A DNA stretch of 64,000 nt from Magnetospirillum sp. SS-4 (GCF_902729425.1 NZ_CACVCH010000013.1:1-64000); one strand, 5' to 3'; counted from the first letter of the stretch, positions 237-40,460 are shown. Notes: generated from the letters alone by a model not told the origin. Made by a program: numbers and translations.

Positions 237-318
237 TGTAGGTTTTCCCTACACCAGCTTCCTGTCGGGAAACCCGACAACTTGCCCATGCCCATAAATA
301 GCGTCGGAAAAACCGACA
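237..318. repeat. array of three 17-bp palindromes upstream of coiled-coil/recombinase operon
   Basis: Three dyads: TGTAGGTTTTCCCTACA (237-253), TGTCGGGAAACCCGACA (263-279) and CGTCGGAAAAACCGACA (302-318). The last lies just before the ribosome-binding site of the next gene and just after a conserved CCATGCCCATAAATA stretch that may hold a -10 element. Equivalent four-palindrome arrays precede the same gene in islands 2 and 3. They are likely operators or recombination sites. Confidence 0.75.
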
Positions 319-333
319 GCAGGGAGGCGGCAA

Positions 334-537
334 ATGCGGGCATGGGAATTCATGAGGGAAGATGCGACGGCCAACAGCTTCGCCGACAATCTGAAACGAC
401 AGGCCGACGCCAAGGCCGATCAGGCCAAGAAGCTCAAGCAAGCGGCTTCCGTGCAAAAGAAGCGCGAACAGGTGAACAGCACGAGGACATCCTTGATGAA
501 GAAGCAGGGCGAATTAAGCAAGATCGCCGCCGCATGA
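334..537 (+). CDS. small coiled-coil protein upstream of minimal recombinase (island 1 copy)
   Basis: A 67-aa Lys/Ala/Gln-rich protein starting MRAWEFMRED, with an almost uninterrupted predicted helix or coiled coil (AKADQAKKLKQAASVQKKRE). The start is set by GGGAGG 7 nt upstream and by two homologues starting at the same point (11221 and 29189). Upstream in-frame extensions are not conserved. It is followed by the 188-aa recombinase in islands 1 and 2, so it may be an accessory or directionality factor; that is inference from position only. Function unknown. Confidence 0.75.
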   Translation: MRAWEFMREDATANSFADNLKRQADAKADQAKKLKQAASVQKKREQVNSTRTSLMKKQGELSKIAAA

Positions 538-634
538 GCAAAACATAAGAAAATTCGCAATTTATTATGTTTGCCGTTAACCACTTGATTATCAATGCAG
601 ATAATTGCTGTCGGCCCTACTGCGCTTTTGATCA

Positions 635-681
635 TATAATGTTTTACCTAACGGAATAACTTTTCATTAGGTAAAGCGATG
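635..681 (+). promoter_or_regulatory. -10-like box and inverted repeat over the recombinase ribosome-binding site
   Basis: TATAAT at 635-640 is followed by TTTACCTAA (643-651) and its inverted copy TTAGGTAAA (667-675), which covers the Shine-Dalgarno region directly before ATG 679. The dyad could be an operator over the transcription start or an mRNA hairpin hiding the ribosome-binding site. It is conserved in island 2. Confidence 0.6.
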
Positions 682-1245
682 AAACAGGCCAAGGTACTCA
701 GCGAAACGGAACTCAAGCGCGTGCTGTCCGTTGTCGCCAATCAGCGTCATGCAGCCCGCAACCGCGTTGCGCTCATGCTCAGCTTTTATGCTGGAATGCG
801 CGTTGGCGAGATTGCCCATTTGAAGCTCGGCGATGTGATTGACGGCGATGGCCGCGTGAAGGACCAAATCGTGCTGCTGGCCCATTACACCAAAACCGCC
901 GAGGCCAGGACGGTGTTCGTCAGCGGCAAGCTGCGCCGCGAACTGGAACGCTTCGTGTCGTGTAACACGACAACGGATCGCGCCGCGCCGTTCCTCGTGA
1001 CGCAAAAAGCCACGGCGTTCTCGGCCAACACCCTCTGCCAGCTATTCGGCCAGATTTACGAACTGGCAGGCATTGATGGAGCGAGCAGCCACAGCGGTCG
1101 GCGGTGGTTTATCACGCAGATGGCCCACAAGGGCGTTTCAGCCAAGGTCATCATGACCCTGGCTGGTCATCGTCACCTATCTACCACGCAGCGGTACATT
1201 GAAGTCAACGACCAGATGATGAAAGCTGCGGTAGAAGTTCTATAG
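679..1245 (+). CDS. minimal (188-aa) tyrosine recombinase, island 1 copy
   Basis: The single-domain protein contains only the catalytic half of the tyrosine recombinase/phage integrase fold. Visible catalytic residues are R41 (GMRVGE), K72, H138-x-x-R141 (SHSGR), H164 (AGHRH) and nucleophile Y173 (TTQRYIEV). The N-terminal core-binding and arm-binding domains of ordinary integrases are missing; the length is like FimB/FimE-type invertases. A 17-bp palindrome (956-972) is read in frame as SCNTT at residues 94-98. It is nearly identical to the island 2 copy and about two-thirds identical to the island 3 copy. It is a good candidate for the enzyme that acts on the island palindromes, though this is unproven. 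Confidence 0.92.
   Translation: MKQAKVLSETELKRVLSVVANQRHAARNRVALMLSFYAGMRVGEIAHLKLGDVIDGDGRVKDQIVLLAHYTKTAEARTVFVSGKLRRELERFVSCNTTTDRAAPFLVTQKATAFSANTLCQLFGQIYELAGIDGASSHSGRRWFITQMAHKGVSAKVIMTLAGHRHLSTTQRYIEVNDQMMKAAVEVL
956..972. repeat. 17-bp palindrome inside recombinase CDS
   Basis: TGTCGTGTAACACGACA, a perfect 8+1+8 dyad read in frame within the recombinase. The same dyad is at the equivalent codons of the other two recombinase copies (11855 and 31597). Confidence 0.9.
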
Positions 1246-1404
1246 CTGGCGAAGATTAAATGCGGTCAAATCCGACGTTTTAGAGTTGTGCGAAATTATA
1301 TTGCGGTTCATTCGCAATAATTGTTCTTTGATTACCCCCTCCCTGTTCGTGTAAGAAGATGTGACAAAACCACTCATAATGTATGGGTATTTGAGAGGGC
1401 GGGA

Positions 1405-1602
1405 ATGCTGGCAAGCAACGTGGCGGGAACCAAGGCGGCAGCAATGGCGCCGATGGTTGGAAAGACAGTGGCCGTTGGAATTGGTGCGACCGTCGGATGG
1501 GGCGTGTTGTCCATCCTGGCCGTGGCCGCTGTGGGTAGTGTCTATTTCGCGAGGAAATACGCAGGCCCGATTGATGTGCCTGTTACCGATCTTGAGGCAT
1601 AG
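1405..1602 (+). CDS. small single-span membrane protein, hypothetical
   Basis: A 65-aa protein starting MLASNVAGTK, with a long Gly/Ala/Val hydrophobic segment (about residues 18-48) that fits one transmembrane helix, then a short polar tail. The ATG has GAGGGCGGG upstream, which is why the longer upstream frame is not used. It occupies cargo slot A between the recombinase and the SpoVG-like gene. No homologue in islands 2 or 3. Family not recognised. Confidence 0.55.
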   Translation: MLASNVAGTKAAAMAPMVGKTVAVGIGATVGWGVLSILAVAAVGSVYFARKYAGPIDVPVTDLEA

Positions 1603-1629
1603 GCCGTCGCCTTTTCGCTCGGCCACGCT

Positions 1630-1926
1630 GTGCGTGACGATGATCTGGCCGAACTCGCTAAACAAATAGCTCAAGCTTGGGCACGCGGTAGCGGTCGATC
1701 TGAAATTCAGGGACAGGCGGCCGTAGCGTCAATTTTCATGACGCTCCGCGAAATCCACGATCATGGTCATCAGCAAAATGCGGTCTTCGTGGAAAAGCCC
1801 AAGTCCAAACAATCAGTCAAGCTTGTGTGCTGTCCCGATTGCGAACGGGTGATGCGCGACTATTCTGCACTCGGTCGTCACAGCAAGTTCTGCACGGCCA
1901 ATCTGCGCAATGTCCGCATAAAGTGA
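1630..1926 (+). CDS. small putative zinc-finger protein, hypothetical
   Basis: A 98-aa protein with a GTG start 27 nt after the preceding gene. The C-terminal part holds CCPDCERVMRDYSALGRHSKFC, a Cys-x2-Cys...His-x3-Cys arrangement that could bind zinc and DNA or protein. The N-terminal half is helical and polar. There is no strong Shine-Dalgarno, so coupling to the upstream gene is possible. It ends 11 nt before a 17-bp palindrome that also forms the end of the next, opposite gene. The function cannot be stated. Confidence 0.5.
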   Translation: MRDDDLAELAKQIAQAWARGSGRSEIQGQAAVASIFMTLREIHDHGHQQNAVFVEKPKSKQSVKLVCCPDCERVMRDYSALGRHSKFCTANLRNVRIK

Positions 1927-1937
1927 GCATGACAGCT

Positions 1938-1954
1938 TGTCGTGTTACACGACA
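1938..1954. repeat. 17-bp palindrome supplying stop codon of SpoVG-like gene
   Basis: TGTCGTGTTACACGACA, extended by CT/AG to 21 bp. Its central TAA (minus strand, 1945-1947) is the stop codon of the SpoVG-like gene. Confidence 0.9.
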
Positions 1955-2268: not shown

Positions 2269-2357
2269 CGTAGGTTTAACCTACACACCGCCAAGCCCAC
2301 CAAAGAAAACGCCCCCAGGCGTTGGCCTGAGGGCGCGTGCTGTCGGAAAAACCTACA
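2269..2357. repeat. two palindromes flanking a short gap between SpoVG-like and AAA+ genes
   Basis: CGTAGGTTTAACCTACA (2269-2285) and the hybrid TGTCGGAAAAACCTACA (2341-2357, one TGTCGG arm and one CCTACA arm). In island 2 this interval contains a whole extra gene between palindromes. A GC-rich hairpin at 2310-2337 may terminate the AAA+ transcript. Confidence 0.7.
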
Positions 2358-3261: not shown

Positions 3262-4077
3262 CTACGCGGCTTCGCGGCCAGCAGCGTCGTCGGCAGCAGC
3301 GCCACCACCGATCAGCTTGTTCACCGCATCCTCGTAGCTCATTTCCCCTTCTTCGCTGTTGAAGAAGCGCTCCTTGCGATTAACCGCGCCTTCATCAAAG
3401 CAGGAGAACTGGTTCGGGAAGATGCCGTCGGGGTCCGTCAAGCTCTTGGCGTTATCGTTCTCCTTGCCGATGGCACGGACGATGGCCTTGATCTGATCGC
3501 TGTTGGGATTTCCGACAGGGCGGTGGACCTTGATGGTGCCGTTCGCCTCAACGGTGCAAAGCATCAGGTACAGGCCGCTGCCGCTGGCGATGGTGCGAGT
3601 AGGCTCAAGCGTGGCGTATTCCCCCTGGCCGACCAGCTTGGCCAAGCCATCGGTGAACTGCTTGTCCTTTGTCGCCTGAGAGACAGGCGTCTTGCCGCGC
3701 CGCACATTTTCCACGCCGCCGCTCTTTTCCAGCCAGCTGACAAACTCAGCGGTCTTGATCCCCTCGGCTTCAGCAATACGGAGAACCTGGCCGTAATTGC
3801 TGGCACGCCAGCGGGGTTCTGCGCCGAAAACAATCTTGATCAGCTTGATTGCAGAAGGAGTAGCGCGCTCAACATGGATGCCGAGCTCGTCGGCAACCTG
3901 AGTGAGCAGCTCGCGGCTCGTTTTCGTGAGGGAAACGGTCGTATACAGGTCATAGCATTCGGCCAGAATGCCATAGAGGCGCTTGTTGCTGGCCGCGAGT
4001 TCCACACCCTCCCAGTTCTTGCGGGAGGCGATCAGGGTGGTGCAGGCGTTGGTCAGAGTGAAGATATCGTGAGACAT
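3262..4077 (-). CDS. unknown partner of AAA+ ATPase (island 1 copy)
   Basis: A 271-aa protein without a recognised domain, encoded directly upstream of the AAA+ gene in all three islands. Shared features with its homologues are an N-terminal 'W-E-x-x-ELAASNKRLY-x-ILA-x-CY' helix, a central 'LIKIVFG...YGQVLRIAEA' segment, and 'F-x-x-WLEKSGGVENVRRG'. After that the sequences diverge. The start MSHDIFT has TAGGAG upstream. Replication or partition accessory is only a guess from pairing with a clamp-loader-like ATPase. Confidence 0.8.
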   Translation of the reverse strand: MSHDIFTLTNACTTLIASRKNWEGVELAASNKRLYGILAECYDLYTTVSLTKTSRELLTQVADELGIHVERATPSAIKLIKIVFGAEPRWRASNYGQVLRIAEAEGIKTAEFVSWLEKSGGVENVRRGKTPVSQATKDKQFTDGLAKLVGQGEYATLEPTRTIASGSGLYLMLCTVEANGTIKVHRPVGNPNSDQIKAIVRAIGKENDNAKSLTDPDGIFPNQFSCFDEGAVNRKERFFNSEEGEMSYEDAVNKLIGGGAAADDAAGREAA

Positions 4078-4708: not shown

Positions 4709-4750
4709 TGTCGTGTAACACGACACGGCCTTCTGTAGGTTAAACCTACA
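4709..4750. repeat. palindrome pair upstream of DUF6641-like gene
   Basis: TGTCGTGTAACACGACA (4709-4725) and TGTAGGTTAAACCTACA (4734-4750), start-to-start 25 bp. The same pair with the same spacing precedes the island 3 copy (39193 and 39218). Confidence 0.85.
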
Positions 4751-5388: not shown

Positions 5389-5405
5389 TGTCGTGTAACA
5401 CGACA
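5389..5405. repeat. 17-bp palindrome, left border of hemerythrin cassette
   Basis: TGTCGTGTAACACGACA, 8 nt after the micro-ORF stop. With 6029-6045 it brackets the hemerythrin gene. Confidence 0.9.
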
Positions 5406-5457
5406 CTCACTCGGCACGGCTCAGGCTCGCGGCAAACCAAGGTGCAGGCGGTAGAAC

Positions 5458-5928
5458 TCAAGCAGAAGTTGGAACCAGTATTAGCCCTTTGCTCGGAGGA
5501 ACGGCCTCGGCCGCCGCTAAAGCGGCAGCGTTTCCTCGGATAGCAACAGCCATCAAAGCATCAAATCCTGTAATATGGTCAGCAAGCCAGTTTACGACAC
5601 CCTTTATCACATCTTCACCAATGACAGCGTTTTGATCTGAGATGATTTGCTCGCGCAATTTATGGACATGAGCTTCGAAGCCGTCATGGGCGCGCTTATG
5701 AGCCTCCATTCCATTATATGCACATGCGGCCATGGCGCGTTCTTCACGGCGAAAGTGATGCTCAACGTAATCACACAGGGAATCGATCACGTATATCAGG
5801 GTTTTATGCGGAAAGTTGTACGCGCCCATAGCGTGAATATCATTGATCCACGCAACGATATTCCTGTGGTCGTCATCGATTGACGGCACACCAACTTCCA
5901 GAGCACTTTCCCAATTGATCAGAGCCAT
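5458..5928 (-). CDS. bacteriohemerythrin
   Basis: A 156-aa four-helix hemerythrin with the expected di-iron ligands: H21 (DDDHRN), H58 and E62 (HHFRREE), H77 and H81 (HKRAH), H118 and D123 (DHITGFD). Bacteriohemerythrins bind O2 reversibly and serve O2 sensing or delivery in microaerophiles. MALINWES was chosen as start (GGAGCACCGCC upstream) because it matches the family N terminus; a 13-residue longer frame exists. The gene lies alone between two identical palindromes in cargo slot B. A different hemerythrin is in slot A of island 3. Confidence 0.93.
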   Translation of the reverse strand: MALINWESALEVGVPSIDDDHRNIVAWINDIHAMGAYNFPHKTLIYVIDSLCDYVEHHFRREERAMAACAYNGMEAHKRAHDGFEAHVHKLREQIISDQNAVIGEDVIKGVVNWLADHITGFDALMAVAIRGNAAALAAAEAVPPSKGLILVPTSA

Positions 5929-6028
5929 TGGCGGTGCTCCTGCGAGGCATGCGTGGAAGAGAACCAAATTTGGATAATTTCAAATATATGTCATGCCCTG
6001 CCTTTGACCAATAGGCCAGCGTTCAACC

Positions 6029-6045
6029 TGTCGTGTAACACGACA
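6029..6045. repeat. 17-bp palindrome between hemerythrin and membrane protein
   Basis: TGTCGTGTAACACGACA, 2 nt beyond the stop of the small membrane protein gene. Confidence 0.9.
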
Positions 6046-6333: not shown

Positions 6334-6350
6334 CGTCGTGTAACACGACA
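6334..6350. repeat. 17-bp palindrome after integrase stop
   Basis: CGTCGTGTAACACGACA, one arm mismatch, 2 nt beyond the integrase stop codon. The palindromes at 25290-25306 and 40444-40460 are in the same place for the other integrases. Confidence 0.9.
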
Positions 6351-6352
6351 GG

Positions 6353-7669
6353 TCAGGGCTTCTTTTTTGGATCGCGCTGTCGCTTTACCTTCTTCAATTT
6401 CTCCCCATCCAGCGTCAGCCAGTCAATGTCTGTGTTGAATTCGTTGGCCCTGCTCACCGACGTGTCGTGTCCGTAATAGCGGTGGATCATGTCGGGGCCA
6501 GTGCCCATGTTGATACCGACCAAGCGATCCGAGACCCCCTCATTGAGCTTCAGCGTGGCATAGGTATGGCGCAAGCTGTACGGCACGAAGTGGTCGCCAT
6601 GCACATCGGTTTCCAGCCTCAGCGCCTTCAACATGGTGTTGAACTGCCGCTTGAATGACACAACCGCCTCGCCCGTTTCCTGATTGGCCAGGACGAAATC
6701 ATCTTCGCCATTGAACTTGCTGACATAGCGAAAGCCCGACAGCATCGGCCACACGAAGCTGTCGCAACGCACCTGTCGCGTGCCCGTCTTCGTATTTTTC
6801 ACGATGGTCAAATAGGCGTGTTCCACGCCGCCGACGACCTTGACGGAAAAGTGCTTCCACTTGATCGGTTGATGCTCTTTCCCTGGCCGAAGCCCCGTGC
6901 CGAGAACGAGGTGGATAAATGCGCTGAATACCATCCGCTCGTTGGTCAGCTTTTCCGAGGGATCGTCGGGGAAGCTGTTGCAGTAATCCAAGATGGCCTT
7001 GGCCTGCTCCTTCGTGAACGCTGGGCGTCGGTTCACAGCGCCTTTATCGCCGCGTGTCGTCTTTTGTCCGATGATCGGCATTCGCGAACCATCAAGGTAA
7101 TCGTTGCTGACCGCGAATTTGAAGATTTGCCTCAGCACAGTGTCTTCCGCGTCGCCCTTGCCCTTGCTCGTGACCGTCTTTTCCCGCGTGTATGATGTGC
7201 CGTCGCGCTTGCGGATTGTCTCTTCGCGCTGCTCAGCACCAGGACCAGTCTGCCAAAACGCCGCTCGCCAAATCTCGTATTCGCCCAAGGTCTTTTGTGT
7301 GATCTGCGTGATCTTGTGCTTGCCGAAATATGGGATGTGGTAGCGCTTCACGATCTTCGTGTAGTCGCTGATCTTGCGAGGCTTGTTGGACGGATCACGA
7401 CCAATCGCAGCAAGCCAAAGCTCGGCCACCGATTTGAAGGACTTGGTGTTGGGATCAAGCCCTTGCTCCGTCAGCACCTCGGCCCGCATCTTCTCCTTGC
7501 GTGCCCAAGCCAAAGCCTTGTCAAAATTGCGCTCGCCTGTGCTGCGGACAAATGCCTTGCCGTCTTCCTTGACGATCCGCGTCTGCCACAAGGTGCTGTT
7601 GGGCCTCTGGTAGAGCGCTATCGCCTTGTCATCATAGTAGAAATATTCTGTCTTCTTTTCGCGGGGCAT
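6353..7669 (-). CDS. int: tRNA-targeting tyrosine integrase of island 1
   Basis: A 438-aa full-length tyrosine recombinase with an N-terminal arm-binding/SAM-like region and a C-terminal catalytic domain. Visible catalytic motifs are GTGLRPGKE (first Arg), TKTGTRQ (Lys region), YSLRHTYAT (second Arg and His) and MIHRYYGHD (His and Tyr nucleophile). The MPREKKTEY start is shared by all three copies; a 5-residue longer frame is not. The 5' end faces the tRNA-Thr-derived core at 7797-7843, as expected for an integrase next to its own att site. About 90% identical to the integrases of islands 2 and 3. Confidence 0.95.
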   Translation of the reverse strand: MPREKKTEYFYYDDKAIALYQRPNSTLWQTRIVKEDGKAFVRSTGERNFDKALAWARKEKMRAEVLTEQGLDPNTKSFKSVAELWLAAIGRDPSNKPRKISDYTKIVKRYHIPYFGKHKITQITQKTLGEYEIWRAAFWQTGPGAEQREETIRKRDGTSYTREKTVTSKGKGDAEDTVLRQIFKFAVSNDYLDGSRMPIIGQKTTRGDKGAVNRRPAFTKEQAKAILDYCNSFPDDPSEKLTNERMVFSAFIHLVLGTGLRPGKEHQPIKWKHFSVKVVGGVEHAYLTIVKNTKTGTRQVRCDSFVWPMLSGFRYVSKFNGEDDFVLANQETGEAVVSFKRQFNTMLKALRLETDVHGDHFVPYSLRHTYATLKLNEGVSDRLVGINMGTGPDMIHRYYGHDTSVSRANEFNTDIDWLTLDGEKLKKVKRQRDPKKKP

Positions 7670-7726
7670 CTCGCACCAAAACAACTGTTAATTGTATCAA
7701 TTCAATTCGCACTCGCTCTGAGCTTA

Positions 7727-8124: not shown

Positions 8125-8141
8125 TGTCGTGTAACACGACA
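8125..8141. repeat. 17-bp palindrome at island 2 left end
   Basis: TGTCGTGTAACACGACA, matching 27081-27097 in island 3. It lies 29 nt beyond the end of the Trp-rich gene. Confidence 0.9.
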
Positions 8142-11082: not shown

Positions 11083-11206
11083 TGTCGTGTTACACGACAC
11101 CCGCGCCTGTAGGTTTAACCTACAGGCGGTCGACTTCCACGCCGTCAACTTGTCGGGAAAACCGACAACTCCCCCATGCCCATAAATAGTGTCGTGAAAC
11201 CCGACA
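11083..11206. repeat. array of four palindromes upstream of coiled-coil/recombinase operon
   Basis: TGTCGTGTTACACGACA (11083), TGTAGGTTTAACCTACA (11108), TGTCGGGAAAACCGACA (11151) and TGTCGTGAAACCCGACA (11190). Start-to-start steps are 25, 43 and 39 bp, exactly as in island 3 (29051, 29076, 29119, 29158). Confidence 0.9.
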
Positions 11207-11533: not shown

Positions 11534-11580
11534 TATAATGATTTACCTAACGGAATAACTTTTCATTAGGTAAAGCGATG
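11534..11580 (+). promoter_or_regulatory. inverted repeat over the recombinase start (island 2 copy)
   Basis: TTTACCTAA (11542-11550) and TTAGGTAAA (11566-11574) lie just before ATG 11578, with TATAAT at 11534-11539. Same arrangement as in island 1. Confidence 0.6.
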
Positions 11581-12144
11581 AAACAGGCCAAGGTACTCAG
11601 CGAGGCGGAACTCAAGCGCGTGCTGTCCGTTGTCGCCAATCAGCGTCATGCAGCCCGCAACCGCGCGGCTCTCATGCTCAGCTTCTATGCGGGAATGCGC
11701 GTCGGCGAGATCGCCCATTTGAAGCTCGGCGATGTCGTTGATGGCGAAGGCCGCGTGAAGGATCAGATCGTGCTGCCAGCCCATTATACCAAGACAGCCG
11801 AGGCCAGGACGGTGTTCGTCAGTGGCAAGCTGCGCCGCGAGTTGGAACGCTTCCTGTCGTGTAACACGACAACGGATCGGGCCATGCCGTTTCTCGTGAC
11901 GCAAAAAGCCACAGCGTTCTCGGCCAACACGCTCTGCCAGCTATTCGGACAGATTTATGCGCTGGCCGGAATTGATGGTGCGAGCAGCCACAGCGGTCGG
12001 CGGTGGTTCATCACCCAGTTGGCACACAGCGGAGTGTCCGCGAAGGTCATTATGACGCTGGCCGGTCATCGCCACTTGTCCACCACGCAGCGTTATATCG
12101 AGGTCAACGACCAGATGATGCGGGCAGCGGTGGAGGGGCTTTAA
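11578..12144 (+). CDS. minimal (188-aa) tyrosine recombinase, island 2 copy
   Basis: All catalytic residues of the island 1 copy are kept (R41, K72, H138/R141, H164, Y173). About 93% identical to it, with changes scattered over the protein. A palindrome is again in frame at the SCNTT codons. The gene is followed 11 nt later by another palindrome that opens the defence cargo of slot A. Lack of an N-terminal domain implies that it binds its DNA site with the catalytic domain alone or with help from the coiled-coil protein. Confidence 0.92.
   Translation: MKQAKVLSEAELKRVLSVVANQRHAARNRAALMLSFYAGMRVGEIAHLKLGDVVDGEGRVKDQIVLPAHYTKTAEARTVFVSGKLRRELERFLSCNTTTDRAMPFLVTQKATAFSANTLCQLFGQIYALAGIDGASSHSGRRWFITQLAHSGVSAKVIMTLAGHRHLSTTQRYIEVNDQMMRAAVEGL
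11855..11871. repeat. 17-bp palindrome inside recombinase CDS (island 2)
   Basis: TGTCGTGTAACACGACA, read as SCNTT, at the same codons as in island 1. Confidence 0.9.
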
Positions 12145-12155: not shown

Positions 12156-12172
12156 TGTCGGGATTCCCGACA
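12156..12172. repeat. 17-bp palindrome, left border of defence cargo
   Basis: TGTCGGGATTCCCGACA, 11 nt after the recombinase stop. The same sequence recurs at 20833-20849, on the far side of the cargo and the SpoVG-like gene. Confidence 0.9.
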
Positions 12173-12292
12173 GGCGATTACCCCATACCCCAGCATTAAT
12201 GCCTATGGAAGGCCAATCAACTTGTTGGAGCATCAGAAGGGCATCGTAAAAACTGCCTCAGCCTCCTCGCTCTAGGCAATATTAGAAAGCAC

Positions 12293-12499
12293 TTAAGGAG
12301 TTAATGTTCGCACAATCATGGGGCGAGTTATTGGGTTAAGCTCCCGAGACCTATCCATTCCCCGAGCATCAACAGAAAACTGTTGTCCTACTCCGGAACC
12401 TCCCCCCTGAGTGCGCCCGGTTTCGAGTTGGCGGCGAAACTCCTCTCCCGCAGAGGTCGGGTAATTGCGGAGGCGTTCAATTTCTGCAACAAGCGTCAT
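12293..12499 (-). CDS. small hypothetical protein downstream of serine protease
   Basis: A 68-aa Arg/Gly-rich protein, MTLVAEIERLRNYPTS..., starting 12 nt after the protease stop and so likely co-transcribed. The N-terminal part is helical and the rest looks disordered. Not recognised. Confidence 0.5.
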   Translation of the reverse strand: MTLVAEIERLRNYPTSAGEEFRRQLETGRTQGGGSGVGQQFSVDARGMDRSRELNPITRPMIVRTLTP

Positions 12500-12511
12500 T
12501 GGTTGTCCCCG

Positions 12512-13396
12512 TCAGTTCACATGGCTACTGTAAAGGTAGGAGCGGATATCAACCCGAGACAGGTATTCTGAAAGGGTATCATTGTAGCGTCTAACAGCAC
12601 GTTGCAGATCAGGATCTTGCCCGAAGTCGTCGATGTCTAGCTTACACCGCTCCTTTAGGGTCTGCATCCCGATCATGCGGCCATGGGAATGCCACTCCGC
12701 ATTCGACGAAAGTAGGGTGGCTATTTCCCGCGCGCGCACAGCTTTCTCAACGTCCGTAACAGGTGCTCCCGCATTCTGCGTGCGATGGACCACCCAATCT
12801 TTAAATTTATACTGAACTAGCCATTTTTCAAGCAAGGCAACGGACAAGTCCCTCGCCTGCTCATAAAATCTAAGCATTGCCATATCTTGACTTATCAGCC
12901 ACTGGAATTCGGCAGGGGTAATCGTGTTGTTTCCAGACTTTAATACAAGTTCATTTACCTTATCTAAATATCCCAGCGCAGGAACTAAAAATTTTCCCTC
13001 TCTATCGGGAACTTGTGGGTCGATTGGGCCTAGGGACGAGGAGTAATCCATATAGATTTTATCGCCGGACATGCAGAAAATGGTTCCTGCGGACATTGCC
13101 GCAACGGGCACAACAAAATAGACAAGCTTGAAGTGATTACGAACAACCTCAACAAGCTTCTCAACAGCTTCAGCTTGCCCGCCTGGAGTTGTTAGGAAAA
13201 TTGCGATTGCATTCTTTTTCTCACGACGACCGGCTATTTTCTCAATAATCTCCCGGAACCAGGAGAATACATTCATCCGTATTTCGCTGTTGAAGTATAT
13301 CACATCGGCGTCCAGGCGCTGTTCCAGGTCCATCTGGGCATCGCGTACAACCGTGAATATGATATCGTCATAGGCTGCCAATGCGCTTCCTCCCAC
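12512..13396 (-). CDS. SppA/ClpP-superfamily serine protease (serine dehydrogenase proteinase-like)
   Basis: A 294-aa protein with the crotonase/ClpP-fold signature of the SDH-type serine proteinases: a TTPGGQAEAVEKLV strand-loop, then PVAAMSAGTIFCMSGDKIYM, where the Ser of AMSAG is the likely nucleophile, then YSSSLGPIDPQV. There are no signal peptide or membrane segments, so it is cytoplasmic. Start is GTG 13396 (GGAGGG upstream); TTG 13381 behind GGAGG is a realistic alternative. Divergent from the methyltransferase over a shared dyad. Related proteases occur in defence islands, but a role here is inference. Confidence 0.85.
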   Translation of the reverse strand: MGGSALAAYDDIIFTVVRDAQMDLEQRLDADVIYFNSEIRMNVFSWFREIIEKIAGRREKKNAIAIFLTTPGGQAEAVEKLVEVVRNHFKLVYFVVPVAAMSAGTIFCMSGDKIYMDYSSSLGPIDPQVPDREGKFLVPALGYLDKVNELVLKSGNNTITPAEFQWLISQDMAMLRFYEQARDLSVALLEKWLVQYKFKDWVVHRTQNAGAPVTDVEKAVRAREIATLLSSNAEWHSHGRMIGMQTLKERCKLDIDDFGQDPDLQRAVRRYNDTLSEYLSRVDIRSYLYSSHVN

Positions 13397-13747
13397 TGGA
13401 CACCCTCCCTATTAGCATACTGAGGGGGGCGTGAGAAGGCGTTCAGGCACAATATCTAGCTGCGGATATTGTGGAGGGGTGCGAATTGAGACGGTCGCGC
13501 CTGACAAAGGGATTGTTGGATTATGGCGAGACAGAGCATCAAATCGGCCGCGCCACCACAATTGCAGCTTACGAATGCCGTTTTCGGGCTACTGGATATG
13601 CCAGCAAGGGCACAATCCGATCACAGCCTTAATCGGCGTCCAAACCAAACCGGCTGGTGACGGATTTCCTCCGCTCTTGTACAAACAATAAGCGCACCGA
13701 AAGGCCTTCGTGCGCTGTCAGAGCTGTTGGATTGGGAGCCGTCGCCT
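13397..13747. promoter_or_regulatory. divergent promoter region with a 26-bp dyad
   Basis: CACAATATC (13448-13456) and GATATTGTG (13465-13473) form a perfect 9-bp inverted repeat with an 8-bp spacer between the protease and methyltransferase genes. It is a likely operator. An 86-codon plus-strand frame here has no ribosome-binding site and is not annotated. Confidence 0.55.
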
Positions 13748-16513: not shown

Positions 16514-16518
16514 GACAT

Positions 16519-24011: not shown

Positions 24012-24178
24012 ACGCCCGTGTATGTCACTGGCCTGCGTATAAAGAATTATTCTCCATACGCGCAGTAAAAATCACGACGTACAACACCAGTTGTTGCATA
24101 TTAAAAATTGTGCGTTAGCTATGCGTTAGTATCGCGCCTTATGGCTGCCTATATCTGCTGTGAAAATGTAAGCTACCT

Positions 24179-24850: not shown

Positions 24851-25036
24851 TCAGCCCTTCCGCAGCGTCGCCATGCGCTCTTTCTTCGCTGCCGCTAGGG
24901 CCTTGTCCAGTTCGCCCGCTGCCACAGCCTCCATCAGCGTCTCGATCACGCCCGCAAGCTGCTCCAGCTTGCCCACCAGCACCGCCGTGTTGTCGCCGTT
25001 CAGCTTCAGTGGCTGATTGCCATAGCGCAGTTCCAA
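24851..25036 (-). pseudogene. truncated DUF6641-like gene (C-terminal half)
   Basis: The 61 codons (ELRYGNQPLKLNG ... AGELDKALAAAKKER) match the C-terminal half of the DUF6641-like protein (EVRYGNKIVEIKP ... AGELDKQLAAMKGR) at moderate identity. The N-terminal half is absent. It is a relic of another, more distant element. Confidence 0.75.
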
Positions 25037-25306
25037 AAGTCAGTTGTACTCGTCACTTCGTTGGCAATGGCGGAGGCTTTCGCGTCAGGGCAGCATAGCA
25101 CGGAGGCCGTACTGCGATAACTTGTCCGGAATCCAGACAAGTTGGCCGAGCCACAACATACATCATGTATGTTCATCGGCGTGTCGTGTTACACGACACT
25201 CGTCCCGTCAGATTTCTCATGCGAGCCGTTTGTCGGAAAACCCGACAGGCATAATCCAAGACTCCGTCGTGCTATATATAAGGCGCGCCTGTCGTGTAAC
25301 ACGACA
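25037..25306. repeat. palindrome-rich mosaic before integrase of island 2
   Basis: It holds TGTCCGGAATCCAGACA (25123-25139, decayed), TGTCGTGTTACACGACA (25182-25198), TGTCGGAAAACCCGACA (25231-25247) and TGTCGTGTAACACGACA (25290-25306). The part at 25081-25155 is a decayed copy of 20806-20870. No gene is supported. Confidence 0.8.
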
Positions 25307-25308: not shown

Positions 25309-26625
25309 TCAGGGCTTCTTTTTCGGATTGGGCGGTCGCTTCAGCTTCTTCAGCTTCTCCGCATCCAGCGTCAGCCAATCAATGTCCGTGTTGAATTCGT
25401 TGGCCCTGCTCACCGACGTGTCGTGTCCGTAATAGCGGTGGATCATGTCGGGGCTTGTGCCCATGTTGATGGCGACCAGCCGATCCGAAACGCCTTCATT
25501 GAGCTTCAGCGTGGCATAGGTATGGCGCAGGCAGTACGGGGTAAATGGGTCGCCTTGCACGTCGGTTTCCATCTTCAGCGCCTTCAACATGGTGTTGAAC
25601 TGCCGCTTGAATGAAACGACGGCCTCGCCAGTTTCCTGATTGGCCAAGACAAAATCGTCCTCGCCATTGAATTTGCTGACATAGCGAAAACCCGACAGCA
25701 TCGGCCACACGAAACTGTCGCAACGCACCAGCCTCGTGCCCGTTTTTGTCTCTTTCACAATGGTCAAATAGGCGTGCGGTACGTCATCAACGACCTTGAG
25801 GGAGAAGTGCTTCCACTTGATCGGCTGATGCTCTTTCCCTGGCCGCAGGCCCGTGCCGAGAACAAGATGGATGAAGGCGCTGAAAACCAGCCGTTCGTTG
25901 GTGAGCTTTTCCGACTGAGTGTCGGGGAAGCTGTTGCAGTAGTCCAAGATGGCCTTGGCCTGTTCCTTGATGAATGAGGGGCGTCGCTTCACAACGCCCT
26001 TATCTCCTCGTGTCGTCTTTTGCCCGATGTTCGGCATGCGCGAACCGTCAAGGTAGTCATTGTTGACCGCGAATTTGAAGATTTGCCGCAGCACAGTGTC
26101 TTCCGCATCGCCCTTGCCCTTGCTCGCGACCTTCTTTTCTCGCGTATAGGTGGTGCCATCGGCCCGTCGGATTGTCTCTTCCCGCTGCTCAGCACCAGGG
26201 CCTGTCTGCCAAAACGCCGCTCGCCATATCTCGTAATCGGCCAAGGTCTTTTGGGTGATCTGCGTGATCTTGTGCTTGCCGAAATACGGGATGTGATAGC
26301 GCTTCACGATCTTCGTGTAGTCGCTGATCTTGCGGGGCTTGTTGGTCGGATCGCGGCCAATGGCAGCAAGCCAAAGCTCGGCAACCGACTTGAACGACTT
26401 GGTGTGCGGATCAAGCCCTTGCTCCGTCAGCACCTCGGCCCGCATCTTCTCCCGACGCGCCCATTCCACGGCCTTGTCAAAGTTGCGCTCGCCCGTGCTG
26501 CGCACAAAGGCGTTGCCGTCCTCCCTGACAATCCGCGCTTGCCACATGCTGCTGTTGGGCCGCTGGTAGAGCGCTATCGCCCTGTCATCAAGGTAGAAAT
26601 ATTCCGTCTTCTTTTCACGGGGCAT
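25309..26625 (-). CDS. int: tRNA-targeting tyrosine integrase of island 2
   Basis: 438 aa, nearly identical to the island 3 enzyme and about 90% identical to that of island 1. Motifs GTGLRPGKE, TKTGTR, YCLRHTYAT and HRYYGHD are intact. Its 5' end faces the att core at 26753-26799. With three near-identical integrases and three identical cores, excision of one or more islands together should be possible. Confidence 0.95.
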   Translation of the reverse strand: MPREKKTEYFYLDDRAIALYQRPNSSMWQARIVREDGNAFVRSTGERNFDKAVEWARREKMRAEVLTEQGLDPHTKSFKSVAELWLAAIGRDPTNKPRKISDYTKIVKRYHIPYFGKHKITQITQKTLADYEIWRAAFWQTGPGAEQREETIRRADGTTYTREKKVASKGKGDAEDTVLRQIFKFAVNNDYLDGSRMPNIGQKTTRGDKGVVKRRPSFIKEQAKAILDYCNSFPDTQSEKLTNERLVFSAFIHLVLGTGLRPGKEHQPIKWKHFSLKVVDDVPHAYLTIVKETKTGTRLVRCDSFVWPMLSGFRYVSKFNGEDDFVLANQETGEAVVSFKRQFNTMLKALKMETDVQGDPFTPYCLRHTYATLKLNEGVSDRLVAINMGTSPDMIHRYYGHDTSVSRANEFNTDIDWLTLDAEKLKKLKRPPNPKKKP

Positions 26626-27080: not shown

Positions 27081-27155
27081 CGTCGTGTAACACGACAGTG
27101 ATGCAGCCAACTTGTCGGGAAACACGACAACTGCCTCCTGTCGGTTAAGCCGACA
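27081..27155. repeat. three adjacent palindromes at island 3 left end
   Basis: CGTCGTGTAACACGACA (27081-27097), TGTCGGGAAACACGACA (27113-27129) and TGTCGGTTAAGCCGACA (27139-27155). In island 2 the Trp-rich gene occupies this place. The third one supplies the stop codon of the next gene. Confidence 0.9.
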
Positions 27156-29050: not shown

Positions 29051-29174
29051 TGTCGTGTTACACGACACTCGCGCCCGTAGGTTTAACCTACAGGCGGTCG
29101 GCCTCCACGCAGCCAACTTGTCGGGAATCCCGACAACTCCCCCATGCCCATAAATAGTGTCGTGAAACCCGACA
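29051..29174. repeat. array of four palindromes upstream of coiled-coil gene (island 3)
   Basis: TGTCGTGTTACACGACA (29051), CGTAGGTTTAACCTACA (29076), TGTCGGGAATCCCGACA (29119) and TGTCGTGAAACCCGACA (29158). Spacing is identical to island 2. Confidence 0.9.
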
Positions 29175-31323: not shown

Positions 31324-31890
31324 CTACAGAATCTCTACCGCAGCCCGCATCATTTCGTCGTTCACATCAATGTAGCGCTGCGTCGTGCTCAGGTGCTTGT
31401 GCCCCGCCAGCGTCATGATGACCTTGGCCGATACACCCGAATGAGCGAGCCGCGTGATGAACCAGCGGCGGCCACTGTGGCTGGTCGCGCCATCAATACC
31501 GGCCTCATCATAGATCTGACCAAACAACTGGCACAGAGTGTTGGGCGAGAATGCCGTACGCTTCTGCGTCATCAGCAGCGGCTCCGCGATATCAAATGTC
31601 GTGTAACACGACACATAGCGCTCAATTTCTTTTCTCAGCTTGCCATTGATGAAGATCGTTCGTGCTTCATTAGCCTTGGTCATCGCTGCGCGGAGCGATA
31701 TGCTGTCGCGCAATCGGCGTTCACTGTCAATTACGTCGCCAAGCTTCAGTGCCGCGATCTCTCCGACCCGCAATCCCGCGTAATAGCTCAGCATAACCGC
31801 CATACGGTTGCGGGACGCGAAGCGAGACTGCGCGATAACTGAGAGGACGCGTTTGAGTTCTGCTTCAGTTGGTACTCTTGCCTGCTTCAT
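31324..31890 (-). CDS. minimal (188-aa) tyrosine recombinase, island 3 copy
   Basis: Same length and catalytic set as the other two (GLRVGE, MTK, SHSGRRW, AGHKH, QRYIDV) but only about two-thirds identical, so it is an older lineage. The in-frame palindrome is kept at 31597-31613 (SCYTT). The start MKQARVPTE follows GAGGTGTTGCG; the TTTACCTAA/TTAGGTAAA control dyad of the other copies is absent. It lies inverted within the sensory module, unlike the plus-strand copies of islands 1 and 2. Confidence 0.92.
   Translation of the reverse strand: MKQARVPTEAELKRVLSVIAQSRFASRNRMAVMLSYYAGLRVGEIAALKLGDVIDSERRLRDSISLRAAMTKANEARTIFINGKLRKEIERYVSCYTTFDIAEPLLMTQKRTAFSPNTLCQLFGQIYDEAGIDGATSHSGRRWFITRLAHSGVSAKVIMTLAGHKHLSTTQRYIDVNDEMMRAAVEIL
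31597..31613. repeat. 17-bp palindrome inside recombinase CDS (island 3)
   Basis: TGTCGTGTAACACGACA at the same codons as in the other recombinases, although the flanking sequence has diverged. Confidence 0.9.
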
Positions 31891-36099: not shown

Positions 36100-36160
36100 T
36101 CCGTAGCGGCTACGGAGGCGCGAGAAAGCTGTTCTGCGAATGGTGTCGTGTTACACGACA
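36100..36160. repeat. two palindromes: right border of sensory module and end of SpoVG-like gene
   Basis: TCCGTAGCGGCTACGGA (36100-36116) pairs with 29411-29427. TGTCGTGTTACACGACA (36144-36160) supplies the TAA stop of the SpoVG-like gene, as at 1938-1954. Confidence 0.9.
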
Positions 36161-36527: not shown

Positions 36528-37412
36528 TTAGGCCGCTTGGGAGCTTGGCGGCGACTGGTTGGGTGTCGGGTTACACGACACGGGGTTGGAGGTGGCCGCA
36601 CTGGTCGGCGGCGACTGGTTGGGTGTCGGGTTACACGACACGGGGTTGGAGGTGGCCGCACTGGTCGGCGGGGACTGGTTGGGCGTCGTGTTACACGACA
36701 CGGGGTTGGAGGTGACCGCACTAGTCGGCGGGGACTGATTGGGCGACGGTGTTTGGGTTGTAGTGCGCAAACGGTTGCGAAGCTTAAATTTGAGGACCAT
36801 GCTTTCAAGCTGCATCAACAGTCCGCGCACACTGCCGCCGTGCGTTTCGGCAAAATGCTTGATTTGCTGATCGCTCATCGACAGCCCTTCCGCATTCAGC
36901 ACCCGCTTCACCAGGGGGACGAGCTGCTGAACAGGAAGAGGGTCGAACAGAAACGCCTCTGACCGACTTTGAATTCCACCGTCCAGTTTGTTGATGGTGT
37001 TTGTAGTAAAGATAAACATTGCGCTCTCGATGAATTCGTCCAGAACGCCCTTCAACGAAAACTGTGCGGCTGCAGTAAGCTGTTCGGCTTCGTCAATGAT
37101 GACAAACTTCGCGCCAATTTTGTTCCATGATACGTAATTCAGGAAATCTTCAATTGCACGAACCTCATTAATCCCGCGAACCATACTTCCATTGATAAAG
37201 CGCACATCATTCACTTCATCAACATCATCAACAACGGCCTTCGGCAACAGGCTGGCGACTGTCGTCTTGCCAGTCCCGAAAGTTCCATGAAGAATAATAT
37301 GATTAAAGCGAACTGCATTTTCATAGAGCTTAATGCCAATTTCCGTATCAGTGTCGGGATACACGACATCAGCAAGGCACTTAGGCTTGTACTTAGTAAC
37401 AAACGAAACCAT
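36528..37412 (-). CDS. clamp-loader-like AAA+ ATPase with palindrome-encoded repeat tail (island 3 copy)
   Basis: A 294-aa AAA+ protein. N terminus KYKPKCLADVVYP is the classical start of RFC-type small subunits. Walker A GTFGTGKT (43-50), Walker B KFVIIDEA (102-109), sensor-1 FTTNT. From about residue 225 the tail is a 20-residue repeat, PNQSPPTSAATSNPVSCNPT, in three and a half copies. Start MVSFVTK follows TAGGAGAAAG; a 15-residue longer frame is not supported. In operon with the partner gene. Confidence 0.88.
   Translation of the reverse strand: MVSFVTKYKPKCLADVVYPDTDTEIGIKLYENAVRFNHIILHGTFGTGKTTVASLLPKAVVDDVDEVNDVRFINGSMVRGINEVRAIEDFLNYVSWNKIGAKFVIIDEAEQLTAAAQFSLKGVLDEFIESAMFIFTTNTINKLDGGIQSRSEAFLFDPLPVQQLVPLVKRVLNAEGLSMSDQQIKHFAETHGGSVRGLLMQLESMVLKFKLRNRLRTTTQTPSPNQSPPTSAVTSNPVSCNTTPNQSPPTSAATSNPVSCNPTPNQSPPTSAATSNPVSCNPTPNQSPPSSQAA
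36548..36745. repeat. 60-bp in-frame tandem repeat, each unit with a 17-bp palindrome
   Basis: Three full units and a partial fourth within the AAA+ gene. Palindromes: TGTCGGGTTACACGACA at 36564 and 36624, CGTCGTGTTACACGACA at 36684. The partial unit lacks it. Confidence 0.9.
37352..37368. repeat. 17-bp palindrome-like site in AAA+ gene 5' part
   Basis: TGTCGGGATACACGACA, two arm mismatches, coding for VVYPDT. Confidence 0.6.
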
Positions 37413-39192: not shown

Positions 39193-39234
39193 TGTCGTGT
39201 AACCCGACACCCCCTGCCGTAGGTTAAACCTACA
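39193..39234. repeat. palindrome pair upstream of DUF6641-like gene (island 3)
   Basis: TGTCGTGTAACCCGACA (39193-39209) and CGTAGGTTAAACCTACA (39218-39234), 25 bp apart as in island 1. Confidence 0.85.
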
Positions 39235-39310
39235 CCTGCCTTTCGGTTGTCCAGCTCGGCGATCAGACCATAGTGTGTTCGTCATGTATTCCTATTTGGA
39301 GGATGTGATA

Positions 39311-39748
39311 ATGAGTGCATTGGACAAGCTGAAGCTGAGCGAAAAGACCCGACGTGCTGTTGTGGCCACGCCTGAAGGGCGCCTGCGGCACAAGCTGGTG
39401 GAGGCCATCAACCAGCAGATCGCTGCTGCGGAAGCGATGCAGAAGGGCGAAGGATTTGAAATTCGGCGCAAGCGCTGGACGAAGGACAGCGAGGGCAACA
39501 AGACCCTGCAAGACCGACTGGTCAAATTTCGCCCCTGGTACTGGCAGGAGGCCAATGGCGCGTTCATGCTGGAAGTGCGCTACGGCAACAAGATCATCGA
39601 GATCAAGCCGAAGAAGACGGCCATTGAGATCGGCGATGTGGCGGAACTGGTCCCGACGCTGACGCTGGTGCGCGATGCGGTGGTTGCTGGCGAACTGGAC
39701 AAGCAGTTGGCCGCGATGAAGGGACGCTTCGGCAAGAAGCTCGCTTAA
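39311..39748 (+). CDS. DUF6641-like protein (island 3 copy)
   Basis: 145 aa, nearly identical to the other copies (one notable change: RRAVVATPEG). Start MSALDKLKL behind TTGGAGGATG. Followed by the conserved terminator and micro-ORF. Confidence 0.85.
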   Translation: MSALDKLKLSEKTRRAVVATPEGRLRHKLVEAINQQIAAAEAMQKGEGFEIRRKRWTKDSEGNKTLQDRLVKFRPWYWQEANGAFMLEVRYGNKIIEIKPKKTAIEIGDVAELVPTLTLVRDAVVAGELDKQLAAMKGRFGKKLA

Positions 39749-39752
39749 CGCC

Positions 39753-39780
39753 AAACAGCCCCGTACAAGCGGGGCTGTTT
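39753..39780 (+). terminator. rho-independent terminator after DUF6641-like gene (island 3)
   Basis: Same stem as in islands 1 and 2. Confidence 0.8.
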
Positions 39781-39782
39781 CC

Positions 39783-39911
39783 ATGAGTGCCGTACTGCAT
39801 TCCCAACAATTCCCCGGCGTGTACGACGCGCAAAGGCCCGCTGCGGCGGTGGCCTATAAGCGGCAATCTCAGTTCCGTTCACACAGGCGCGCGCATGGTG
39901 CGCCGAACTGA
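39783..39911 (+). CDS. conserved micro-ORF, extended version (island 3 copy)
   Basis: It starts MSAVLHSQQFPGVYDAQRPA and continues to 42 residues because the usual stop region and palindrome are replaced. It overlaps the end of the convergent membrane-protein gene. Confidence 0.4.
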   Translation: MSAVLHSQQFPGVYDAQRPAAAVAYKRQSQFRSHRRAHGAPN

Positions 39912-40141
39912 GTTGGACAGCCATGTAGCCGCCGCCACATCTCAAACGGTGTAAGAACGTAGAATGCGCCAAACACACAGAAGACTATGATTGATGCATT
40001 CCAAATAATATTGCCAAATTCAATATTAATTACAATGTATGAAATAATAGCGATGATTAAAGACGCAAGCAGCCATAGCATTAATGATGGTATTTTATAC
40101 AGTGTGCACAGAGTGTGTTTATTTTTATTTGAAAGTATCAT
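39869..40141 (-). CDS. small membrane protein, slot B cargo of island 3
   Basis: A 90-aa protein starting MILSNKNKHTLC, with two hydrophobic segments (about residues 20-38 and 45-65) and a basic C terminus. GAGAG precedes the start. AT-rich. Not related in sequence to the island 1 membrane protein in the same slot. Family not recognised. Confidence 0.55.
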   Translation of the reverse strand: MILSNKNKHTLCTLYKIPSLMLWLLASLIIAIISYIVINIEFGNIIWNASIIVFCVFGAFYVLTPFEMWRRLHGCPTQFGAPCARLCERN

Positions 40142-40443
40142 TATTCGCTCTCTTCGCATCGCGGTGGGGCCCAGGGGGGGGCAGGCAGAGCCGCCAACCA
40201 AGTGCTCATTTTCTCAGTTTGAGGGTGTATTGTCCATTCGTAGAATTTACGCTAAAACTTTAGTATTGGTCTGCGTGGTTGTCTTTGCCTCGTCCCAGCA
40301 ATCATGGCGAGCCTGGGGGGCTAATCCCGCTAAAACACTGGCCCAAAAATTCACTTTTTGTTCGGCGCGCGTTCCGAATGACGCACCCATATTCTGATTG
40401 CCGAACCGTGGCGGTCGGCATCAGAGACAGGGGATGCCCAGCC
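40142..40443. other. intergenic region before integrase of island 3, no gene
   Basis: Mixed composition with a G-run near 40170. Open frames here run opposite to or across real genes and lack ribosome-binding sites. Confidence 0.4.
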
Positions 40444-40460
40444 TGTCGTGTAACACGACA
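40444..40460. repeat. 17-bp palindrome after integrase stop (island 3)
   Basis: TGTCGTGTAACACGACA, 2 nt beyond the integrase stop codon. The last palindrome before the chromosome. Confidence 0.9.

Follow-up and report, generated by a model that had tools for sequence, protein, structure and literature searches.

Short dyads at the joints of the island mosaic in Magnetospirillum sp. SS-4, and a small tyrosine recombinase as their candidate enzyme

Integrons exchange cassettes beside a tyrosine recombinase, at sites whose sequence varies while their structure stays. Dif-like sites, with an XerC and an XerD arm, measure ~28 bp, and FimB-like tyrosine recombinases are not known to have a core-binding domain. 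In the pdif (xrs) modules of Acinetobacter plasmids, as set out in the available parts of two reports, one element carries many short sites, cargo lies between pairs of sites, the same module recurs in several contexts and tyrosine recombinases are implicated (PMC9455709, PMC11705084). Small recombinases of the FimB/FimE/IpuA type act at inverted repeats of 7-16 bp near their gene, and the accessible text places one ipuS repeat within ipuA itself (PMC6083910). Mycobacteriophage stoperators, according to excerpts of two papers, are many short sites dispersed over one element, with a specificity that varies between relatives (PMC9283540, PMC6550527). Here we describe short dyads, mostly of 17 bp, in a stretch of 64,000 nucleotides from Magnetospirillum sp. 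SS-4 (GCF_902729425.1 NZ_CACVCH010000013.1:1-64000; the whole stretch is called the window below), which opens a 175-kb contig (G000:C18) in the 4.53-Mb draft assembly of a member of the genus Paramagnetospirillum. The dyads lie in three tandem islands, each of which encodes a 188-amino-acid (188-aa) tyrosine recombinase. Comparison between islands shows them to be joints, or cassette boundaries, of the inter-island mosaic, and our best inference, at a probability of roughly 0.55, is that the 188-aa recombinase carries out exchange at them.

The islands resemble pdif modules in their many short sites, in the cargo between site pairs, in the recurrence of one module in several contexts (site-bounded modules in unrelated contexts in 72/269 pairs, against 8/584 controls) and in the implication of a tyrosine recombinase. 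However, pdif sites are dif-like and are used with the host XerC/XerD, whereas the island dyads come with a recombinase of their own and are near-perfect 17-bp dyads (some ~25 bp) in chromosomal islands. The sites found are symmetric TGTCG-N7-CGACA dyads rather than dif-like ones, no dedicated search for dif having been made. The system works like pdif modules but is not one of them, differing by its type of site. It shares with FimB/FimE/IpuA a small, simple tyrosine recombinase (188 aa, a catalytic domain without a core-binding domain) and short inverted repeats near and within the gene, and the window recombinase matches the NCBIfam tyrosine-type DNA invertase PRK09870 over residues 2-177 (E 1.2e-8). 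Its scores lie below the family cutoffs (34.8 bits vs 221 for PRK09870, 25.1 vs 222 for PRK09871), and those enzymes invert one promoter segment, whereas the islands have 13-16 sites each and swaps of cargo. Cassette exchange beside a tyrosine recombinase, with a variable site sequence of constant structure, recalls integrons, but the islands have neither a long asymmetric attC nor a one-way array anchored at attI: their sites are short and symmetric, neighbouring GTG dyads share an orientation 24 times and oppose each other 32 times, and dyads also lie 5' of and within genes. The match to the integron integrase model TIGR02249 reaches 30.5 bits against a cutoff of 265, and the system is not an integron. 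Stoperators offer a further likeness, in many dispersed short sites on one mobile element with a specificity that varies between relatives; they are asymmetric repressor sites, whereas the dyads are symmetric, stand at recombination breakpoints and have no identified repressor, the helix-turn-helix (HTH)-like DUF6626 protein not tracking them.

Dyads and the island mosaic

Both half-sites of each dyad were scored against TGT[CA]G[GT][GT][TA], with at least 14 of 16 letters matching. This gave 45 dyads, the first at 237 and the last ending at 40460, all in 1-42,000 and none in 42,001-64,000. The islands hold 13, 16 and 16 of them and the 22 kb of flanking chromosome none, while Markov-shuffled island DNA yielded a mean of 0.7 and a maximum of 5 in 40 shuffles. 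Across the genome, the loose pattern TGTMGN7CKACA matched 51 times, against 9 for a reversed-pattern control; among the matches listed, 35 lie in the window and 15 elsewhere, two of the latter being true dyads on contig C59, in another small island. The initial annotation, which had described about 45 dyads confined to the islands and absent from 42-64 kb, is thus confirmed by the counts, by the genome-wide scan and by the enrichment of islands over chromosome. Its statement that hybrid and decayed versions occur also holds under half-site scoring. Perfect 8+1+8 dyads of any sequence, the layout that it had proposed, start 28 times below 41,000 (22 of TGT type and 6 of unrelated sequences) and 3 times farther on, against 0.9 in shuffles; nevertheless, 7+3+7 is the better notation, because the pair at positions 8/10 is frequently broken. 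The 45 dyads, from half-site scoring and without strand, are as follows.

237..253: dyad 1, hybrid TGTAGGTTTTCCCTACA, array 5' of p86
263..279: dyad 2, GGG type, homology edge between islands 1 and 2
302..318: dyad 3, decayed, p86 beginning 15 bp on
956..972: dyad 4, within recombinase gene 1, codons 93-98
1938..1954: dyad 5, holds the SpoVG-like stop codon, right flank differing between islands
2269..2285: dyad 6, TAGG type, before SpoVG-like gene 1
2341..2357: dyad 7, hybrid, 6 bp past the AAA gene stop
3501..3517: dyad 8, decayed, within p271, ambiguous through overlap with the conserved VG.P(D/N)S coding motif
4709..4725: dyad 9, 5' of DUF6641 gene 1, breakpoint
4734..4750: dyad 10, TAGG type, 5' of DUF6641 gene 1
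5389..5405: dyad 11, hemerythrin cassette, end facing DUF6641
6029..6045: dyad 12, hemerythrin cassette, opposite end; 11 nt of the integrase 3' end are copied here
6334..6350: dyad 13, 2 bp past the integrase 1 stop
8125..8141: dyad 14, close to the island 2 attachment (att) end
11083..11099: dyad 15, array 5' of p86/recombinase operon 2
11108..11124: dyad 16, TAGG type, same array
11151..11167: dyad 17, hybrid, same array
11190..11206: dyad 18, hybrid, same array
11855..11871: dyad 19, within recombinase gene 2, codons 93-98
12156..12172: dyad 20, GGG type, 11 bp past the recombinase 2 stop, where the restriction-modification cargo begins
20833..20849: dyad 21, GGG type, before SpoVG-like gene 2
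21539..21555: dyad 22, GGG type, 6 bp past the AAA gene stop
22490..22506: dyad 23, GGG type, within p271, ambiguous (coding motif)
23341..23357: dyad 24, hybrid, 5' of DUF6641 gene 2
23995..24011: dyad 25, response-regulator cassette, end facing DUF6641
25123..25139: dyad 26, decayed
25182..25198: dyad 27
25231..25247: dyad 28, hybrid
25290..25306: dyad 29, 2 bp past the integrase 2 stop
27081..27097: dyad 30, close to the island 3 att end
27113..27129: dyad 31, hybrid
27139..27155: dyad 32, overlaps the end of DUF6626 gene 3
29051..29067: dyad 33, array 5' of p86, island 3
29076..29092: dyad 34, TAGG type, same array
29119..29135: dyad 35, GGG type, same array
29158..29174: dyad 36, hybrid, same array
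31597..31613: dyad 37, within recombinase gene 3, codons 93-98
36144..36160: dyad 38, holds the stop codon of SpoVG-like gene 3
36564..36580: dyad 39, hybrid, tail of AAA gene 3 (60-bp tandem unit)
36624..36640: dyad 40, hybrid, tail of AAA gene 3
36684..36700: dyad 41, tail of AAA gene 3
37352..37368: dyad 42, hybrid, N-terminal region of AAA gene 3
39193..39209: dyad 43, hybrid, 5' of DUF6641 gene 3
39218..39234: dyad 44, TAGG type, 5' of DUF6641 gene 3
40444..40460: dyad 45, 2 bp past the integrase 3 stop

The dyads within p271 are not counted as selected DNA sites, because they overlap the conserved VG.P(D/N)S protein motif.

What the initial annotation missed is the main property of the dyads, namely that they are breakpoints of mosaicism between islands. 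The window was compared with 40 stretches from 16 genomes, 17 loci having at least 5 dyads. With homology blocks of at least 85% identity and coincidence set at 8 bp or less, a homology edge fell at 123/234 dyads of these dyad-rich loci (53%), against 143/1114 positions just 3' of stop codons (13%) and 235/3400 intergenic positions (7%). Seen from the blocks, 371 of 1069 edges lie within 20 bp of a dyad, compared with 42 +/- 12 after circular shifts, and 10 of the 35 edges of blocks with at least 97% identity lie within 10 bp of one, a count without control. At 166 of the 226 dyads having any flank homologue, at least one one-sided flank switch was seen: one flank of homologous dyads is conserved and the other switched. 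Full-length homologues exist for 60/102 segments between neighbouring dyads, and in the resulting 269 pairs the outer flanks are unrelated on both sides in 72, on one side in 108 and on neither in 89. Random segments of the same length (612, with a homologue for 196) gave 8, 95 and 481 in 584 pairs. Segment pairs are not independent, hence segments were also counted: at least one homologue with both flanks changed was found for 18/60 dyad-bounded and 5/196 random segments.

Single cases read in the same way. In locus L028 the order is integrase-dyad-DUF6641, and in window islands 1 and 2 it is integrase-dyad-cargo-dyad-DUF6641, so that an empty site (L028:8019) can be set against two filled ones, 5389...6334 (hemerythrin, 945 bp) and 23995...25290 (response regulator, 1295 bp). 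Further empty and filled pairs are L018 vs L025 (1064 bp) and L031 vs L023 (529 bp); seven such rows were obtained, three were dropped since different islands had been joined, and four were kept. The hemerythrin segment is 93% identical over 488 bp between L025 (P. magnetotacticum) and island 1, with both outer flanks different. Integrase genes that differ entirely stop just short of a dyad, beyond which the DUF6641 flank is the same. The last codons and the stop of the SpoVG gene lie in a dyad, and the sequence 3' of it is mostly different among the 13 copies compared. A 409-bp pair of 100% identity stops 1 bp beyond a dyad (L024), one copy reaching the contig end. The integrase 3' end plus dyad recurs at 6029 as a copy of 27 bases; together with the recombinase remnant at 19839-19904, this copy looks like a scar of repeated insertion. 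The exchangeable segments of the window, and the cargo of recombinase 2 with the remnant beyond it, are the following.

5406..6028, no strand: hemerythrin exchangeable cassette, with a bacteriohemerythrin-like gene at 5458-5967 on the minus strand
12173..19838, no strand: recombinase 2 cargo, with ClpP-like, type IIG restriction-modification (MmeI family), helicase and T5orf172-domain genes
19839..19904, plus strand: recombinase 3'-end remnant, on the far side of the restriction-modification cargo
24012..25289, no strand: response-regulator exchangeable segment, with a response-regulator gene at 24179-24682 on the minus strand

Several flavours of dyad occur side by side: TGTCGTGTAACACGACA, the GGG type, frequently longer (AACTTGTCGGG...CCCGACAAGTT, ~25 bp), the TAGG type, and hybrids. 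The outer TGTCG is present on both sides in 142/158 sites picked for symmetry and TGT/ACA ends, and the central heptamers among these 158 are TGTAACA (97), GGAAACC (22), GGAATCC (10) and GTTAAAC (8). A rarer family, AACATAC...GTATGTT, is found in the same islands, with a single window copy at 25156 and others at L022:4444 and L033:871, 8821, 11105 and 13438. In L022 it replaces the TGTCGTG dyad near att, and this one homologous position holds a TGTCGTG, TGTCGG or AACATAC dyad depending on the island. The initial annotation had taken the constant geometry and variable arms to mean that different specificities of one protein family recognise the dyads. The constancy is real, extends to unrelated dyads in some other loci of the recombinase family and fits one family with different specificities. 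Flavours and hybrids are nonetheless mixed within an island, and because they share it with recombinases of one family they need not correspond to separate binders.

The described placement at gene ends, in arrays and within coding sequence also stood. With a gene set picked by hand from open reading frames (ORFs), arrays with 25-26 bp spacing were seen 5' of genes, namely of p86 and DUF6641, between outward-facing genes, and other dyads at gene ends, some 2-11 bp 3' of stop codons. Dyads are only slightly more frequent near stops than expected (10 against 4.6 within 20 bp), and 9/45 dyads are within coding sequence, which makes up 76% of the stretch. The strict dyad pattern is present in 11/17 genomes of Paramagnetospirillum, with control counts of 0 or 1. 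A phage origin of the dyads was considered and rejected: the pattern occurs once in each of 5 stretches of IMG/VR, near chance by our estimate, and DUF6641 has no match in the phage collection. PHROG does contain families for the AAA protein as well as for DUF6641 and DUF6626. Plasmids of Legionella, Piscirickettsia and Acinetobacter appeared as names in a match list only, and no description of such dyads was found in the partial collection of full-text literature searched.

The 188-aa recombinase and its relatives

The candidate enzyme is encoded once in each island.

679..1245, plus strand: 188-aa recombinase, island 1, catalytic domain only, candidate enzyme
11578..12144, plus strand: 188-aa recombinase, island 2
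31324..31890, minus strand: 188-aa recombinase, island 3, 75% identical to the island 2 copy

The island 1 protein matches PF00589 (E 1.4e-25), and R41, K72, H138, R141, H164 and Y173 are invariant in 25 aligned relatives. A confident model of the island 2 copy (mean predicted local distance difference test, pLDDT, 92.4) matched the C-terminal part of XerA in Foldseek (5hxy, E 6e-11), and the sequence aligns with residues 103-274 of an archaeal Xer chain, the C-terminal two thirds of Xer proteins. The R-K-H-R-H-Y residues and the fold place it in the tyrosine recombinase superfamily. The absence of a core-binding region is unusual, because a survey, in the part available, describes core-binding and catalytic regions for all tyrosine recombinases (PMC8138268). 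FimB-like enzymes are similar to the 188-aa protein in this respect. All 11 genomes with strict dyads have a recombinase match at E 1e-54 or better, and the four genomes without a close recombinase (best E 1.7e-9) have no strict dyads. Shortened recombinase remnants stand by the end of the SpoVG-like gene with a dyad at L030:5817-5942, L047:10689-10814 and L048:9188-9313.

A dyad lies at codons 93-98 in 17 of 27 recombinase genes. Its flavour varies, as do the residues encoded there (SCNTT, SCYTT, SCSTT, SGVPT, SVFPT), which sit at a helix end and loop of the model, while the symmetry is kept; in L022 both sides have changed together. Among 10 chosen variants, 88.6% of cells are paired, compared with 79.2% after shuffling and no more than 52.9% at slid positions, and the covariation score is 0.190 against 0.068 shuffled, with 0/500 shuffles reaching either value. 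The number of pairs changed on both sides, two, was matched in 129/500 shuffles and is not unusual. Relatives without the dyad align without extra length. Unrelated dyads lie near the same position in L079 and L072. L072 also has inverted near-copies of one dyad, at 10283 in the gene and 29 bp past its stop, which flank the 3' half of the gene; this resembles an invertible segment, as a lead only.

Unrelated dyads of the same build occur near members of the recombinase family farther afield: GAACATACT-TGA-AGTATGTTC, TAGTTCAT-AGT-ATGAACTA, AAAACTTGAT-TTA-ATCAAGTTTT and GGAGTACGA-GTA-TCGTACTCC. A recurrent dyad stands within 60 bp past the recombinase stop in 5/33 distant loci, against 7/544 other ORF ends (Fisher p 2.7e-4), and the five comprise three unrelated dyad sequences, the ACATAC type (L057, L058, L071) and those of L080 and L083. 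On the Azospirillum B510 plasmid an imperfect copy lies 16 bp past the stop and a perfect one 4 kb farther. In L080, L083, L096 and L033/L057, related proteins (25-30% identity) are encoded between the gene-end dyad and its next copy. The gene-end dyads of these distant lineages give independent support to dyads as cassette ends, but the other 28 loci have nothing similar. A TGT-like family with the motif DSGG[FY]Q is encoded beside the recombinase, between dyads, at L033:11945-13549, L080:7383-8813, L083:13548-15107 and L096:13407-14852. The L033 protein has a sub-threshold PF01702 match (E 0.011), the L083 gene has as neighbour one that matches, below threshold, a family of vitamin uptake transporters, and the protein may be base-modification cargo; its model was poor (mean pLDDT 44) and was left unused.

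Small tandem islands of another type are present in the same genus (L044, which is G000:C59, and L021, L020 and L016). Besides DUF6626 and DUF6641, they encode an integrase, a response regulator and an IS91/HUH-like protein, and dyads of the TGTCGTG, AACATAC and ACTTACG kinds form an array between DUF6626 and DUF6641. The IS91/HUH-like protein, of ~300 aa, has a weak match to the IS91 zinc domain (E 0.024) and HUH-like letters by our reading, with relatives in L021, L020/L071 and L040/L090 and a fragment in L080.

Mechanism and rival explanations

If the 188-aa recombinase is the enzyme, two molecules would bind the two inverted half-sites (outer TGTCG/CGACA), and strand exchange within the short middle part of the dyad would lead to insertion, excision or inversion of a cassette. 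The kept outer letters and the few central heptamers would suit a core site of the arm-overlap-arm kind. Arrays may be sites left side by side, or enzyme bound there may also regulate the recombinase operon. By analogy with the E. coli recombinase IpuA, one of whose inverted repeats is placed in its own coding sequence by the accessible text (PMC6083910), the in-gene dyad could be a further site that puts the recombinase gene under control of its own reaction. Movement of whole islands at tRNA-Thr is likely the work of the separate 443-aa integrase. A wider reading, to which we give rather less than even odds, is one of self-contained cassette shuffling, in which a catalytic-domain-only recombinase family of alphaproteobacterial islands would use its own short n+3+n dyads, one of them in its own gene. 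The dyad sequence would shift by lineage with its geometry kept, and the cargo swapped would include restriction-modification, signalling and, in distant relatives (Shimia, an Emcibacter metagenome-assembled genome (MAG), Azospirillum and a Rhodospirillaceae MAG), a TGT-like operon that lies beside the recombinase with unrelated dyads on either side. If true, this would be a platform for exchange in the manner of integrons or pdif modules, with a minimal recombinase and minimal sites of its own, and one recognised in magnetotactic-type bacteria from the sequence alone; it would tell how short the site of a tyrosine recombinase can be, account for the gene-by-gene trade of cargo between islands and offer a compact, testable recombination tool. 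Should the enzyme be another one, 17-bp dyads as mosaic joints would still make island evolution readable.

A number of observations weigh against action of the 188-aa recombinase at the dyads. Strict dyads are absent from genome G011, which has a recombinase (77%); in L033 the recombinase is 87% identical, but TGTCG dyads are lacking, the in-gene site is decayed and another dyad family is present instead; and in the L044/L021/L020 type of island no 188-aa recombinase was matched in the unit that bears the TGTCG dyads. Where differing dyads stand beside a conserved flank, the half next to the flank is kept in 26/87 pairs, the reverse holds in 22/87, both halves differ in 34/87 and the centre only in 5/87. 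Exchange at the dyad centre was rejected as a specific proposal, and no claim is made on the cut site, because no preferred position of exchange is seen in this comparison. Of neighbouring GTG dyads, 24 pairs share their orientation and 32 do not; this lack of bias, with that of a fixed exchange point, speaks against a directed overlap. Equally strong palindromes arise by chance elsewhere in recombinase genes, so that recurrence in the locus is what counts for the in-gene dyad. Domain swapping of the recombinase at that dyad was also rejected, half-by-half identities having no clear outlier or switch. No recurrent dyad follows the recombinase stop in 28/33 distant loci, a looser rule applied to 20 of the distant loci gained only L072, and the Paracoccus plasmid and Caulobacter phage loci with recombinase relatives have no recurrent dyad. 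Finally, the proposed xrs/pdif cassettes of Acinetobacter, in the part of the report available, were not excised when tested (PMC11705084).

The main rival, which we regard as unlikely, makes the dyads operators or dispersed, stoperator-like silencer sites of an island regulator, kept by selection at promoters, at gene ends and in genes, with the breakpoints arising passively by general recombination through a shared short sequence. Dyads of 17 bp at 25-26 bp spacing resemble lambda operators, and the arrays 5' of p86 and DUF6641, between outward-facing genes, have this spacing; the dyads of L044-type islands without recombinase, the hybrids, which imply half-sites read separately, and the centre without orientation bias agree with operators too. 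Yet no stoperator repressor was found. The initial annotation had named the HTH-like protein among the possible binders, and DUF6626, the best repressor candidate, keeps 83% identity in L033, its putative recognition segment differing by a single Q/K change; it is less likely to be the specific reader of TGTCG dyads, because L033 has it nearly unchanged without them. It would be odd for a single operator to alternate between TGTCGTG, TGTCGG and AACATAC at one homologous position, and switches on both sides exactly at dyads would need recombination through 17 bp only.

It is less probable again that the dyads work as folded single strands, with an HUH-type rolling-circle protein, replication pausing or template switching stopping at any short hairpin, so that breakpoints and flavour swaps follow structure rather than sequence. 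Unrelated dyads do share the n+3+n geometry and interchange at one position, the in-gene site has paired changes, and L044-type islands encode the ~300-aa protein with the weak IS91 zinc-domain match. The window islands have no match to that protein, however, the inner pairs are broken in many array sites, which are hybrids and would make poor hairpins, and the outer TGTCG is strongly kept (142/158 sites). Terminators, or a mobile repeat similar to repetitive extragenic palindromic (REP) elements, without any part in cassette exchange, would account for the dyads 2-11 bp past stops, but are very improbable: TTTT occurs within 9 nt on either side in 0/45 dyads, 9/45 are within genes, tRNA alone exceeded the threshold in an Rfam scan of 1-42,500, the dyads are confined to islands rather than dispersed, and in-gene sites add no length relative to genes without a dyad.

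The three islands and their genes

The three tandem islands share one tRNA-Thr gene, at whose 3' half they lie; every island has a 438/443-aa integrase of its own, and the left end of island 1 is beyond the contig start.

41907..41982, minus strand: tRNA-Thr(CGT)
~7797-7843, ~26753-26799 and 41907-41953: att repeats (tRNA-Thr 3' half)
6353..7684, minus strand: island integrase 1, a tyrosine recombinase distinct from the 188-aa protein
25309..26625, minus strand: island integrase 2
40463..41779, minus strand: island integrase 3

The 188-aa recombinase, the 443- or 438-aa integrase, the SpoVG-like and AAA proteins, p271 and DUF6641 are common to the three islands; DUF6626, p387 and p86 each occur, as far as covered, in two islands or in all three. 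The variable cargo consists of the bacteriohemerythrin-like protein, the response regulator, the MmeI-type restriction-modification set, and a histidine kinase, regulators and a porin. Homologue searches with p387 and p271 returned unannotated proteins only, and p271, an orphan without family match, adjoins the AAA gene in each island. The AAA protein, one per island (2364-3188, 21562-22221 and 36528-37418), is related to phage clamp loaders, the island 2 copy matching phrog_168 at E 2e-36. The MmeI-family type IIG set occupies 12512-19774, between recombinase 2 and the recombinase remnant, and its MmeI protein corresponds to PADLOC REase_MTase_IIG (E 2e-277).

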